Shown here in pieces: positions 29,697 through 34,500 of a stretch of DNA of 64,000 nucleotides (positions are counted from its first letter, which is position 1; the number at the start of each line of letters is the position of its first letter). A program made the translations under genes and the position numbers. A model generated the notes under the pieces. The model saw only the letters and a list, made by a program, of their open reading frames with translations, did no database searches and was not told the origin of the DNA. This DNA is from Oscillibacter valericigenes (GTDB taxonomy: Bacteria; Bacillota; Clostridia; Oscillospirales; Oscillospiraceae). The DNA lies in contig NZ_JACSNX010000004.1 of the NCBI RefSeq assembly GCF_016902445.1, positions 62,001 through 126,000 on the forward strand, given 5' to 3'.

Positions 29697-30373
29697 CCAA
29701 GACCATTCGCGTGGCCATCGACGGCCCCTCCGGCGCGGGGAAGAGCACCCTGGCCCGGAGCGCGGCCGCCAGGCTGAACTTTTTATATGTGGACACCGGG
29801 GCCATCTACCGGACCATCGGCTGTGCCGTCCGGCGGCGGGACATTGACCCCGGGGACCGGGCCGCTGTGGTGGCGGCGCTGCCGGCGCTGGACATCGGGC
29901 TGACCTACGGGGCCGACGGATTACAGCACATGGAGCTGAACGGAGAGGACGTGACGGCGGAGATCCGTCTGCCGGAGATCTCTCGGTATGCCTCCGTGGT
30001 GTCCGCCTATCCGGAGGTCCGGGCGTATCTGCTGGAGATGCAGCGGCGCCTGGCCCGGGAGCACAGTGTCATCATGGATGGCCGGGACATCGGCACCGTG
30101 GTGCTGCCGGATGCGGAGGTGAAGGTGTTCCTCACCGCCTCTGCAGAGGAGAGGGCCCGGCGCAGGATGCTGGAACTGCAGCAGCGGGGGACTCCGGAGC
30201 CCTACGAGGACATCCTCCGCGCCATTCAGGAGCGGGACTGGAACGACACGCACCGGGCCGCCGCGCCCCTGCGGCAGGCGGAGGACGCGGTGCTGCTGGA
30301 TACCACGGAGCTGGATTTTACGCAGAGCGAGGAAGCCCTGCTGCGGATCATCCGGGAAAGGGCTGGGCTATGA
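29693..30373 (+). CDS. cmk: Cytidylate kinase
   Basis: A 226-residue enzyme phosphorylating CMP and dCMP with ATP. The P-loop GPSGAGKST spans residues 11-19; VDTGAIYRT and DGRDIGTVVLPDAEVKVFLTAS are CMP-kinase landmarks; the LID region follows (EERARRR). Length is normal. It overlaps both neighbours by 4 bases, so this is a tightly coupled operon. Confidence 0.96.
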   Translation: MTKTIRVAIDGPSGAGKSTLARSAAARLNFLYVDTGAIYRTIGCAVRRRDIDPGDRAAVVAALPALDIGLTYGADGLQHMELNGEDVTAEIRLPEISRYASVVSAYPEVRAYLLEMQRRLAREHSVIMDGRDIGTVVLPDAEVKVFLTASAEERARRRMLELQQRGTPEPYEDILRAIQERDWNDTHRAAAPLRQAEDAVLLDTTELDFTQSEEALLRIIRERAGL

Positions 30374-30999
30374 ACGAAGAGAAGAAAGAGGTCCAGGAGA
30401 AGAGACCGCTGAACGGTTTTTTCGTATTCGTCTACTATCTGGTGACTTTGGTGGCGAACATCCTCCACCCGGTCACCGTCATCGGGCGGGAGAATCTGCC
30501 GGAGCACGGCGCCCTGCTGTGCCCCAATCACAACAGCAACTGGGACCCGGTGCTGGTGGCTCTGAAGGTGCCGGTGAACTACCGGCTCCACATCATGGCG
30601 AAGAAGGAGCTGTTCTGCAACAAGGTTTTTGACTGGGTGCTGCGGAAGCTGGGCGCCTTCCCCGTGGACCGGGGGGAAGGGGACATCGAGGCGGTGAAAA
30701 ACGCCCTGAAGGCCATCAAGAGCGGGGACAATCTGCTGATCTTCCCGGAGGGCACCCGGGTGGAGCACGAGGGGGATCTGCCCGCCAAGGGCGGCGTGGC
30801 CGTCATCGGCATCCGCTCCGGGGCGCAGTTCGTGCCGGTGTATGTGGAGGGGAACAAGCGGATCTTCCGCCGGACCCGCATCATCTTCGGCCAGGCCTAC
30901 CGGCCGGATGCCGCCAGCCGCAGACCTTCGCCGGAGGAGGTCCAGGCCATCGCCGACGAGGTCCTGCGCCGGGCCTACGCCCTGGGGAGGGAGACCTGA
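30370..30999 (+). CDS. plsC: 1-acyl-sn-glycerol-3-phosphate acyltransferase
   Basis: A 209-residue membrane-associated acyltransferase making phosphatidic acid. NHNSNWDP (H54 to D59) is the catalytic HX4D motif and FPEGTR the substrate-binding motif; an N-terminal hydrophobic segment (FFVFVYYLVTLVANIL) anchors it. ATG 30370 overlaps cmk; its TGA shares bases with the ispH start (30997-30999). Confidence 0.94.
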   Translation: MNEEKKEVQEKRPLNGFFVFVYYLVTLVANILHPVTVIGRENLPEHGALLCPNHNSNWDPVLVALKVPVNYRLHIMAKKELFCNKVFDWVLRKLGAFPVDRGEGDIEAVKNALKAIKSGDNLLIFPEGTRVEHEGDLPAKGGVAVIGIRSGAQFVPVYVEGNKRIFRRTRIIFGQAYRPDAASRRPSPEEVQAIADEVLRRAYALGRET

Positions 31000-32966
31000 T
31001 GACCGTTCTTCTGGCAAAGAGCGCCGGCTTCTGCTACGGAGTGCGCCGGGCGGTGGAGCTGGCGGAGCGGACCGGAGAGGAGACCGGCGGCTGCTGGATG
31101 CTGGGAGACCTGATCCACAACTCTCATGTGGTGGAGGACCTGGCCCGCCGGGGCGTCCGGCGGACGGAGGACCCCGGCAGCCTGAAGGCCGGAGACACGG
31201 TGGTGATCCGGTCCCACGGAGAGCTGAAGTCCGTGCTGGACGACCTGGACCGGCGGGGCATCCGTTGCATCAACGCCACCTGCCCCAACGTGTGCCGCAT
31301 CCAGCGGCTGGTTGCCCAGGCGGAGGCGGAGGGCCGTCGTCCGGTGATCATCGGCGAGCCGCGCCATCCGGAGGTGATGGGCGTGGCCAGCTGGTGCCGC
31401 GATCCCCTGGTGTTCGACGGGCCGGAGGCTGTGGAGGCCTGGCTGGCGGAGGATGAAAAAAACCGGGAAATCCCTGTCACCGCAGTGGCTCAGACTACCT
31501 GCATCCGTAAACTTTTTGAAACTTCTTGGAAAATCCTAAAAAAAGAGTGTACAAACGTAAAAATATTTGATACAATATGTACTGCTACGCATGAACGTCA
31601 GTCTGAGGCGGCTGAAATTGCCGCCAAAGCCGACGTGATGGTTGTGGTGGGAGACCGTAAAAGTGCCAACACCAAACATTTGACGGAAATTTGCTTGAAG
31701 AGATGCCCCCGTGTGGTCCAGATCGAACGCGCGGATGAGCTCTCGCCGGATTTTTTCGCTGGTTGTTCTGTTGCGGGTCTTACGGCTGGCGCCTCCACGC
31801 CTGCGGGCATCATTAAGGAGGTATATGCAACGATGAGCGAAGAAATCAAGGCGGCCGAGGGCAAAGAGGAGTCCTTCGAGGAGTTACTGAATCAGTCTTT
31901 TAAAACTTTAAATAACGGTGACCGGGTCACCGGCATCGTTACCGCCATTACTCCCACTGAGGTACAGGTGGACGTGGGCGCCAAGCAGGCGGCGTACATC
32001 AAGCTCAGCGAGCTGAGCGACGATCCCAACGTCAAGGCCGAGGACATCGTCCACGTGGGCGACCAGATCGAGACCTACGTGGTCCGGGTCAACGATGTGG
32101 AGGGCTATGCGGAGCTGTCCAAGAAGCGCCTGGACGCCGCCAAGGTCTGGGAGAACATCGAGCAGGCCGTGGAGGACAAGACGGTCTTGGAGGGCACTGT
32201 CACTGAGGAGAACAAGGGCGGCATCGTGGTGTCCGTCAAGGGCGTGCGGGTGTTCGTCCCTGCCTCTCAGAGCGGTCAGCCCCGGGGCGCCGATCTGTCT
32301 GCCATGGTGAAGCAGAAGGTCCAGCTGCGGATCACCGAGGTCAACCGTGCCCGCCGCCGCGTGGTGGGCTCCATCCGCTCTGTGGCCGACGAGGCCCGGA
32401 AGGCTGCCCAGGCTGAGCTGTGGGCCAACATCGAGGTTGGCAAGCACTACACCGGCACCGTCAAGTCCATGACCAGCTACGGCGTGTTCGTGGACATCGG
32501 CGGCGTGGACGGCATGGTACATATCTCCGAGCTCAGCTGGAGCCGGATCAAGACCCCCTCTGAGGTCTGCAAGGTGGGCGACACCCTGGATGTGTACGTC
32601 ATCTCCTTCGACCCTGAGAAGAAAAAGATCTCTCTGGGCGTGAAGGACCACAGCATCGATCCCTGGCAGGTTTTCATGGACAAGTATCAGGTTGGCGACG
32701 TGGCCTCTGTCCGCATCGTCAAGCTGATGAGCTTCGGCGCATTTGCCGAGGTCGTTCCCGGTGTGGACGGCCTGATCCACATCTCCCAGATCGCCGACCG
32801 GCGCATTGACAAGCCTGAGGACGTCCTGTCCGAGGGCCAGATCGTGGACGCCAAGATCACGGCCATCGACGAGGAGAAAAAGAAGATCTCCCTGTCCATC
32901 CGCGCCCTGCTGACCCCCGCGGCTGATGAGTCTGTGGAGGAGGAAGAGGCTCCCGCGGAGGAGTGA
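30999..32966 (+). CDS. ispH-rpsA: Fused IspH (HMBPP reductase) and ribosomal protein S1
   Basis: A 655-residue bifunctional protein. Residues 1-278 are 4-hydroxy-3-methylbut-2-enyl diphosphate reductase, the last step of the MEP isoprenoid route; C12, C95 and C194 ligate the 4Fe-4S cluster, with GDLIHN and RSHG as substrate motifs. Residues about 300-640 hold four S1 RNA-binding domains, for example KSMTSYGVFVDIGGVDGMVHISELSW. The fusion is known in Clostridia. The coding segment 31480-31830 is far more AT-rich than its flanks and contains a promoter-like sequence, and a strong SD/ATG (31815-31835) marks a possible separate S1 start. Confidence 0.96.
   Translation: MTVLLAKSAGFCYGVRRAVELAERTGEETGGCWMLGDLIHNSHVVEDLARRGVRRTEDPGSLKAGDTVVIRSHGELKSVLDDLDRRGIRCINATCPNVCRIQRLVAQAEAEGRRPVIIGEPRHPEVMGVASWCRDPLVFDGPEAVEAWLAEDEKNREIPVTAVAQTTCIRKLFETSWKILKKECTNVKIFDTICTATHERQSEAAEIAAKADVMVVVGDRKSANTKHLTEICLKRCPRVVQIERADELSPDFFAGCSVAGLTAGASTPAGIIKEVYATMSEEIKAAEGKEESFEELLNQSFKTLNNGDRVTGIVTAITPTEVQVDVGAKQAAYIKLSELSDDPNVKAEDIVHVGDQIETYVVRVNDVEGYAELSKKRLDAAKVWENIEQAVEDKTVLEGTVTEENKGGIVVSVKGVRVFVPASQSGQPRGADLSAMVKQKVQLRITEVNRARRRVVGSIRSVADEARKAAQAELWANIEVGKHYTGTVKSMTSYGVFVDIGGVDGMVHISELSWSRIKTPSEVCKVGDTLDVYVISFDPEKKKISLGVKDHSIDPWQVFMDKYQVGDVASVRIVKLMSFGAFAEVVPGVDGLIHISQIADRRIDKPEDVLSEGQIVDAKITAIDEEKKKISLSIRALLTPAADESVEEEEAPAEE
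31548..31576 (+). promoter_or_regulatory. Candidate internal promoter for the S1 part
   Basis: TGTACA (31548-31553), a 17-base spacer and TACAAT (31571-31576) lie inside the IspH coding region, in a locally AT-rich stretch. The transcript would start near 31583 and include the S1 half only. Confidence 0.5.
31815..31835 (+). promoter_or_regulatory. Internal SD and in-frame ATG at the IspH/S1 junction
   Basis: AAGGAGGT (31815-31822) is followed 10 bases later by ATG 31833, in frame (codon 279, MSEEIKAAEGK). It sits exactly at the domain junction and could start an independent S1 of 377 residues. Confidence 0.6.
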
Positions 32967-32984
32967 TCTGCCTTTGATTGCACG

Positions 32985-33023
32985 AGAGAAGCCAGACCCC
33001 ATGCGGGGCCTGGCTCTCTTTTT
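32985..33023 (+). terminator. Terminator of ispH-rpsA
   Basis: GAGAAGCCAGACCCC and GGGGCCTGGCTCTC pair (about 32986-33018) around ATGC and are followed by T5. Confidence 0.85.
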
Positions 33024-33029
33024 AAAATT

Positions 33030-33047
33030 TTGTGAGAATTTTCACGA
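33030..33047. promoter_or_regulatory. Rex-like redox operator
   Basis: TTGTGAGAATTTTCACGA matches the Rex operator pattern TTGTGAANNNNTTCACAA at 12 of 14 fixed positions. It ends 6 bases before the -35 box of the CoA-transferase promoter. Rex represses fermentation genes when NADH/NAD is low in many Gram-positives. Confidence 0.55.
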
Positions 33048-33053
33048 AATAGA

Positions 33054-33082
33054 TTGCTTTTCCCGAAGCGGCATGTTATAAT
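33054..33082 (+). promoter_or_regulatory. Sigma-A promoter of the CoA-transferase gene
   Basis: TTGCTT (33054-33059), a 17-base spacer and TATAAT (33077-33082), about 70 bases before the start codon. Confidence 0.8.
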
Positions 33083-33153
33083 CTTGTCAATCTATCGTAA
33101 TACAACGCGGGCGACATCATACAACAATCGGGAATTACAGGAGGAAACATGAT

Positions 33154-34500
33154 ATGAGCTACCAGGAAGTGTACAAACAGAAGCTGACGACGGCGGACGA
33201 GGCGGTCAAGGCCGTCCAGTCCGGCGACTGGGTGGACTACGGCTGGAGCGTCTGTTCCGCGGATGCGCTGGACAAAGCGCTGGCCCGCCGGATGGACCAG
33301 CTGACAGACGTGAAGATCCGGGGCGGCATCCTGACCCATCGGCCTGCCATTTTCGATGTGCCGGGCGCGGCGGACCATTTCACCTGGAACTCCTGGCACA
33401 TGAGCGGCATCGAGCGCAAGGCCGTCAGCGAGGGCTTCTCCTATTACATCCCCCTGCGGTATTCCGAGCTGCCGGGATATTACCGCAACTGCATCAAGAC
33501 GCTGGATGTGGCCATGTTCCAGGTAGCTCCCATGGATGAGCACGGCTGGTTCAACTTCGGCCCCGGCGGCTCCCATCTGAAAGCGGTGTGCGAGTGCGCC
33601 AAGACCGTCATCGTGGAAGTCAACAAGAACATGCCCGTTTGCCTGGGCGGCTTTGACAACTGCATCCACATTGATGACGTGGATATGATCGTGGAGGGTG
33701 AGAACCCCATCCTGGACGAGCTGGGCGGCGGAGGAGCTGCCAGCGAGGTGGATCTGGCGGTGGCCAATCTGGTGGTGCCGGAGATCTGCGACGGCGCCTG
33801 CCTGCAGCTGGGCATCGGCTCCATGCCCAACGCCATCGGCAAGATGATCGCAGAGAGCGACCTGAAGGACCTGGGCGTGCACACGGAGATGTATGTTGAC
33901 GCATTTGTGGACATGTCCATGGCAGGCCGCATCACCGGCCTGCGTAAGCCCTTTGACCGGGGCCGGCAGACGTATGCCTTTGCGGCGGGCACCCGGAAGC
34001 TGTACGACTTCATCGACAATAACCCCGGCTGCATGGCAGCTCCTGTCAGCTATGTGAACGACATCGCCCGGGTGTCCCAGATCGACAACTTCATCTCCAT
34101 CAACGGCGCGGTGGACGTGGACCTGTACGGTCAGGTGTCCTCCGAATCCTCCGGCACCCACCACATCTCCGGCGCCGGCGGCCAGCAGGACTTCGTCATG
34201 GGTGCCTACCTGTCCAAGGGCGGCAAGAGCTTCATCTGCTGCTCCTCCTCCTATATGGACAAGAAGACCGGCCAGCTGAAGTCCCGCATCCGGCCCACCC
34301 TGCTGGAGGGCTCTGTGGTCACCGCCACCCGCACCAACCTCCACTATGTGGTCACCGAGTACGGCAAGTTCAACGCCAAGGGCAAGTCCACCTGGGAGCG
34401 GGCTGAGGGCCTCATCGCCATCGCCCATCCCCAGTTCCGCGAGGAGCTGATCGCCGCGGCGGAGAAGATGCACATCTGGCGCCGCTCCAACAAGAGATAA
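33154..34500 (+). CDS. Acetyl-CoA hydrolase/transferase family, probable butyryl-CoA:acetate CoA-transferase
   Basis: A 448-residue cytosolic family-I-like CoA-transferase. [11 protein letters not shown] places the expected catalytic glutamate at E245, as in 4-hydroxybutyrate and butyryl-CoA transferases; [10 protein letters not shown] gives the Gly-rich CoA pocket, and [17 protein letters not shown] the C-terminal motif. It would move CoA from butyryl-CoA to acetate, the last step of butyrate formation. 4-hydroxybutyrate or propionate use is possible; sequence alone does not decide. It is monocistronic with its own promoter, terminator and a Rex-like site. AGGAGGA precedes ATG 33154. Confidence 0.88.

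Follow-up and report, generated by a model that had tools for sequence, protein, structure and literature searches.

The IspH–S1 fusion gene of the gut bacterium Oscillibacter valericigenes very probably contains a second, complete gene: rpsA, encoding ribosomal protein S1, appears to lie nested within the 3' end of ispH, sharing its reading frame, and to give a free 377-residue S1 besides the fusion. In the mechanism that we propose, translation from 30999 would give IspH fused to S1, and the nested gene would be served in the source clade by a sigma-A-type promoter at 31548-31576 within the IspH coding sequence. Its Shine–Dalgarno sequence (SD, 31815-31822) would be built from the codons of the last conserved IspH residues, K-E-V, its start would be the ATG at 31833, and free S1 would come from a transcript of ~1.4 kb that ends at a hairpin after 32985. 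Comparison among relatives shows selection on SD, start and promoter at the DNA or RNA level, beyond what protein coding requires. By comparative standards it is almost certain that the start site functions and very likely that the promoter does so in the source clade, where transcription from it would start near 31583. The features are located as follows in the window, that is, in the whole stretch of 64,000 nucleotides that was analysed:

30999..32966, + strand: ispH–S1 fusion open reading frame (ORF), 655 aa (NF000907, Pfam LYTB and four S1 stretches)
31503..31547, + strand: AT-rich, synonymously constrained stretch 5' of the -35 element (its part 31503-31538 is the third-ranked non-overlapping window, score 2.78)
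31548..31553, + strand: -35 element TGTACA (TGT in 86/86 and ACA in 86/86 aligned rows)
31568..31576, + strand: extended -10 element TGATACAAT (TG-A-TACAAT; codon conservation in 86 rows, TGATACAATA in 105/172 wider fusions)
31581..31832, + strand: predicted start region and ~250-nt leader of the S1 transcript, within the ispH frame (placed from the position of the -10 element)
31815..31822, + strand: SD AAGGAGGT, doubling as the K-E-V codons of IspH (AAG 86/86, GAG 86/86)
31833..32966, + strand: nested S1 ORF, 377 aa (ATG 86/86, NF005208, ribosomal-type codon usage)
32985..33023, + strand: hairpin and T run after the S1 stop (read from the sequence; a scan gives a 5-pair terminator-like site at 33005-33017)

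The fusion itself is already known, being an IspH–S1 fusion of the NF000907 type (bifunctional IspH / 30S ribosomal protein S1); this model matches residues 1-650 with 716.2 bits against a cut-off of 624. Pfam LYTB covers residues 3-279, four S1 stretches lie in the same ORF, and NF005208 (30S ribosomal protein S1) matches residues 291-648 with 379.2 bits (cut-off 368). Genome-wide, the one LYTB match falls in this ORF, as do four of the nine S1-domain matches, the other five being single. The nearest named record to the IspH part is a Candidatus Oscillibacter, at 94% over IspH. As the ATG of the fusion (30999) and the stop codon of the preceding ORF (30370-30999) overlap, ispH is part of a run with the upstream genes; from the translations we read that ORF as plsC-like and the run as cmk-plsC-ispH.

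The same architecture was described by Rao et al. (2015; PMC4746011) as an IspH-RPS1 'Rosetta stone' fusion, found mostly in anaerobic Firmicutes. According to that paper, organisms with the fusion have no further ispH or rps1 gene, the Clostridium thermocellum fusion is active when expressed with an N-terminal His-tag, and the roles of the fusion 'remain to be determined', the authors proposing an Fe-S switch linked via S1 to the ribosome. The product is treated there as one polypeptide, whereas we propose a nested second product; the main text contains neither 'promoter' nor 'start codon' nor 'internal'. A 46-kDa protein that co-purified with the C. thermocellum fusion would, by our own estimate, fit in size the free S1 of this 694-residue fusion, but we did not use it, as the accessible text identifies it as E. 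coli Rho (fingerprint, 69% coverage). Among the matches listed in the open-access literature, Rao et al. is the only paper on the fusion. The term IspH-RPS1 is used once in the accessible part of PMC12605070, and that of a C. ljungdahlii paper equates RpsA with Clju_c41620 and contains neither ispH nor lytB. The listed open-access matches, outside which many subscription papers lie, held no transcription-start or proteoform data on the locus. Judged from the open-access literature, from which many subscription papers are missing, the nested gene seems undescribed so far.

A first-pass annotation, made from the letters alone, had proposed that the ispH coding sequence turns AT-rich and holds TGTACA-17-TACAAT, followed by an SD and an in-frame ATG, and all of these are present exactly where it placed them. 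GC content is 0.375 at 31480-31599 against 0.67-0.73 in seven windows over 31000-31479. At third codon positions it falls to 0.275 at 31479-31598, compared with 0.736-0.848 in 12 of the 17 bins of the fusion gene, and a mean of 0.347 in 86 aligned fusions shows the dip to be common to relatives. The motif at 31548-31576 has a spacer of 17 nt between TGTACA and TACAAT, inside the 16-18 nt of sigma-A hexamer pairs, and carries the TGn of an extended -10; it agrees with the sigma-A (sigma-70 type) consensus at 9 of 12 positions (4 of 6 in the -35 alone), and the pair is conserved in the clade. The block 5' of it, 31503-31547, may be an UP-like element or a regulator site; in the close alignment, 86/86 rows have AAA at 31539 and 85/86 have it at 31542. 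Further downstream, AAGGAGGT is followed by ATG 31833-31835, which is codon 279 of the ispH frame and opens 377 codons up to the stop at 32966. The gap from GGAGG to this ATG is 11 nt, so that 31815-31835 holds an SD and an in-frame start at functional spacing, both conserved beyond coding.

In the source genome alone, the SD is unsurprising and the promoter only mildly surprising. We used 20,000 synonymous shuffles of the fusion gene as the null for both. A 9/12 promoter arose anywhere in the gene in 14.7% of them, or in 2.8% if TGn was required as well; none regenerated the exact promoter elements at their own place. A promoter scan over 5 kb gave one site, where shuffled sequence would give 0.8. 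AAGGAGGT was recovered at its own place in 58.6% of shuffles because AAG and GAG are preferred codons. Since codon usage in one genome leads one to expect the SD, the evidence must be comparative. When the other in-frame ATGs of 13 neighbouring gene segments were inspected (31833 excluded), one in 87 had GGAGG 4-11 nt upstream. With conservation added, SD and promoter both come out far beyond chance on comparison of sequences.

Close relatives were collected as 30 loci from 86 genus genomes, 78 from a contig search and 40 further stretches, giving 95 distinct junctions, from which 86 rows, source gene included, were codon-aligned and nine partial, unfused or distant rows left out. The contig-search loci carry a mild bias, one of six search words having spanned the start site; the genus-genome loci are unaffected. 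In the start region, ATT, AAG, GAG and ATG are each present in 86/86 rows, GTA in 84/86, and GCA in 82 of the 83 rows with Ala. Among the promoter codons, TGT and ACA of the -35 and the later ACA are likewise found in 86/86 and ATA in 80/86, with GAT in all 85 Asp rows and TTT in all 66 Phe rows. We scored synonymous constraint against each gene's own codon use in 627 windows of twelve codons. The window over SD and start, 31812-31847, ranks first (5.39), and the promoter window, 31539-31574, second (4.82, non-overlapping ranking); the third, 31503-31538, adjoins the promoter, and the fourth, 32439-32474, scores 2.43. Mild extra synonymous constraint is also seen inside the predicted leader, at 31662 and 31728-31763. 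Conservation of the SD in other fusions, which the first-pass annotation had named as a check, thus holds, with AAG GAG and ATG in 86/86 rows here and GGAGG in 169/172 wider fusions. Two of the collected loci, L089 and L118 (G043; one contig, found twice), are without the motif. About 37 nt of ispH with the GASTP codons are missing there, so that S1 is out of frame with ispH; the promoter, the SD and the ATG are all intact. We did not count this locus as a natural split, the ~37-nt gap lying in an assembled metagenome genome; it reflects either a misassembly or a really broken ispH.

For the wider comparison, IspH searches matched 269 of 295 genomes in the order sample, 262 of 291 in the class sample and 240 of 249 in the phylum sample. 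From among the matches listed we took 204 loci, best matches and hand-picked ones, the unfused loci being chosen deliberately. Removal of duplicates left 200: 172 fused, 22 with S1 adjacent or overlapping and 6 without S1 downstream, proportions that are not population estimates because the loci were not sampled at random. The counts over fusions must be read with the non-independence of related sequences in mind; Fusobacterium fusions are outside the comparison. GGAGG occupies the homologous codons in 169/172 fused and 18/22 adjacent loci, and in 0/6 of those without S1 downstream, a control group of only six. By sample, GGAGG is present in 66/66 fusions of the order, 55/55 of the class and 48/51 of the phylum, a split in which some same-order genomes stand within the class sample (they are moved to the order in the 71/50/51 split used for the promoter below). 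Where the site has Glu, as in 170 fusions, the codon is GAG in 170/170 (74.5 expected). In 169 of these 170 the preceding codon has G as its last base (79.2 expected), though the residue varies among K, E, R, M, S, G and Q, the codons seen being AAG, GAG, AGG, CGG, ATG, TCG, GGG and CAG; rows with Lys have AAG in 113/113 (58.6 expected). An in-frame start follows GGAGG in 169/169 fusions, as ATG in 165 and GTG in 4, after a gap of 11 nt (152), 8 nt (15) or 5 nt (2), compared with a background ATG rate of 2.5% in the two codons at such spacing. The replacement of a lost ATG by GTG is as a start codon would predict. Three of the 172 fusions are without exact GGAGG: L309 and L316 have GAGGGGG, and in L353 the site is gone. 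This last locus (G870) has lost the usual GGAGG and ATG and carries an SD-like AAAGGG, then ATG GAA AAC GAG, ~18 codons downstream; its S1 start may have shifted to that pair.

The unfused relatives have an S1 start at the same place. In 17 of the 22 adjacent loci, a start codon of the S1 frame (ATG in 11, GTG in 6) lies 9-13 nt after GGAGG, the S1 frame being shifted by +1 or +2 against that of ispH. The N-terminus of S1 often resembles the residues after 31833 (for example, MSEQ, MSEL or MSEE). For 10 of the 17, the homologous site is the first start codon of the S1 frame, which has a stop codon just before it; in the 6 that start with GTG, ATGs further on stay possible starts. Four adjacent loci (L240, L313, L326 and L327) are without GGAGG and have S1 start codons further downstream. 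In loci such as L257-L263, L265 and L266, the overlap is out of frame and the first S1 codons encode the last IspH residues. One locus sorted as unfused, L336, is probably a fusion with a later frame break. Together with the conservation of SD and start, the unfused loci lend support to the two products read by the first-pass annotation, the IspH–S1 fusion and a free S1 of 377 residues.

The promoter has a narrower range than the start site. TGATACAATA occurs in 105/172 fusions, namely 67/71 in the same order, 38/50 in the rest of the class and 0/51 in the rest of the phylum; outside fusions it occurs in 3/22 adjacent loci and 0/6 loci without S1 downstream. Ten fusions were unscored, and a search of the stretch alone found it in none of them. 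In the 162 scored fusions, ACA (114/162, 39.0 expected), ATA (114/156, 34.2 expected), GAT (117/122, 60.8 expected) and TTT (111/119, 68.2 expected) all exceed expectation. ATA exceeds expectation in adjacent loci too (10/16, 4.3 expected), as it does where no S1 lies downstream (4/5, 1.0 expected), so by these small numbers ATA alone is not specific. The 105 fusions with the -10 have as -35 hexamers TGTACA (48), TATACA (16), TGCAAA (11), TTTGCA (9), TTTACA (6) and others (15). The hexamer 17 nt 5' of the -10 matches TTGACA at 4 or 5 positions in 83/105, and the match peaks at this offset, with a mean of 3.75/6 compared with 2.97 for the best of 12 shifted offsets. As the SD is kept in 169/172 fusions but TGATACAATA in 0/51 beyond the class, the nested start appears general and the promoter clade-specific; where a fusion is missing TGATACAATA, free S1 would come from the ispH mRNA or from another promoter.

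These observations bear on several other readings of the site. Were the SD-like sequence a by-product of coding K-E-V with a preference for AAG and GAG, no initiation would take place at it, and the ease with which shuffles regenerate AAGGAGGT in its own place agrees with that. Yet AAG and GAG are invariant among the relatives at well above the expected numbers, the G bases persist while the residues vary, and GGAGG is absent from the six loci without S1 downstream. Relatives with other codon use and IspH genes without S1 thus led us to reject coding as the cause of the SD, and we hold this reading to be extremely improbable. A programmed pause at the domain boundary, giving IspH time to fold before S1, is very unlikely. 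Slowing of ribosomes by SD-like sequences has been proposed, and this one sits exactly at the IspH/S1 junction; however, a pause needs no start codon, and ATG or GTG follows in frame at 5-11 nt in all 169 GGAGG rows, the S1 start codon being at the homologous site in unfused relatives. The site might also be a disused relic of the pre-fusion S1 gene, given that neighbouring ispH and rpsA genes, as in unfused relatives, were probably the precursors of the fusions. A relic should drift synonymously, yet the strongest constraint in the gene sits there and GGAGG is kept across the order, class and phylum samples, and we find the idea hardly credible.

A further reading accepts the nested start as real but has it served only by the ispH operon transcript, through coupling or internal initiation, the promoter-like motif being another kind of element, for example a regulator site or an RNA feature. 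Beyond the class, fusions have the SD but not the promoter, adjacent loci are mostly without it, the -35 is weak, and ATA is enriched even in loci that lack S1, all of which suits such a reading; on the other hand, the constrained bases form a -35/-10 pair with TGn, and the TTGACA match is best at the 17-nt offset. We consider it unlikely, and prefer a nested rpsA with its own promoter in the source clade.

How the nested gene came about is suggested by the unfused loci. Overlapping adjacent genes with the downstream ribosome-binding site inside the upstream gene are a common arrangement, and the 17 unfused loci have it, the SD of S1 lying inside ispH. In the fusions, by contrast, the overlap is in frame, and therefore ispH has no stop of its own. 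It is likely that the fusion originated by such overlap, the S1 initiation region coming to lie inside the end of ispH: an S1 ATG in the ispH frame leaves about three codons for an ispH stop, so fusion would be almost automatic. Internal in-frame starts also yield the short forms of IF2 and CheA. As in Cas11b, for example (as described in the accessible part of PMC11899642), a downstream start would here give a second protein in the same frame. Unlike in such cases, the short product is an entire ribosomal protein and the long one joins two functions that are unrelated; the coding sequence also contains a promoter-like element in part of the class.

Beyond the existence of a nested gene, we lean towards the view that the nested free protein serves as the ribosomal S1 of these bacteria, with the fusion as a lesser, frame-locked product; all IspH would be S1-tagged, and separate promoters and starts would set how much S1 is tagged and how much free. 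The abundance of free S1, its place as the main ribosomal S1, independent supply of S1 as the purpose of the arrangement, and the fusion as a minor form from the ispH operon are what we infer. A nested SD in nearly all fusions examined means that a widely annotated 'fusion protein' is to be read differently. If S1 is also or mainly free, ribosomes need not all bear an Fe-S enzyme, the fusion may in part result from gene overlap, what the fused form does becomes open to test, and a separate ribosomal protein would be missing from the annotation of many anaerobes. If free S1 is the main form, the 'bifunctional IspH/S1' annotation across Clostridia often names the lesser product.

The putative S1 transcript was also examined for structure and codon usage. 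In the leader, the RNAalifold covariation term is 1.3, within the 0.2-1.8 of nine gene stretches of equal length, some of them overlapping the leader, and no Rfam family matches at gathering score within 30500-33400; these results give no support to a conserved leader RNA structure such as an autoregulatory ribosomal-protein leader would have. The mRNA is weakly structured at the start, where the windows at 31845 and 31830 rank third and fifth of 121; the two least-structured windows lie over the promoter. The hairpin at 32985-33023 is probably an intrinsic terminator closing a monocistronic S1 transcript. Codon adaptation, with 19 ribosomal genes of the source genome as reference (mean 0.704), is 0.722 for the S1 codons 321-655 and 0.592 for the IspH codons 2-150, compared with 0.397-0.675 for 11 window genes; because the IspH part is above 10 of these 11 neighbours, the contrast in the source genome is modest. 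Across 84 aligned genes (two rows were too short), all measured against the source genome's ribosomal genes, S1 exceeds IspH in 84/84, with means of 0.661 and 0.391. The gene next to the fusion, 33154-34500 (by our reading a CoA transferase), shows ribosomal-type codon adaptation (0.675), above the other ten window genes tested.
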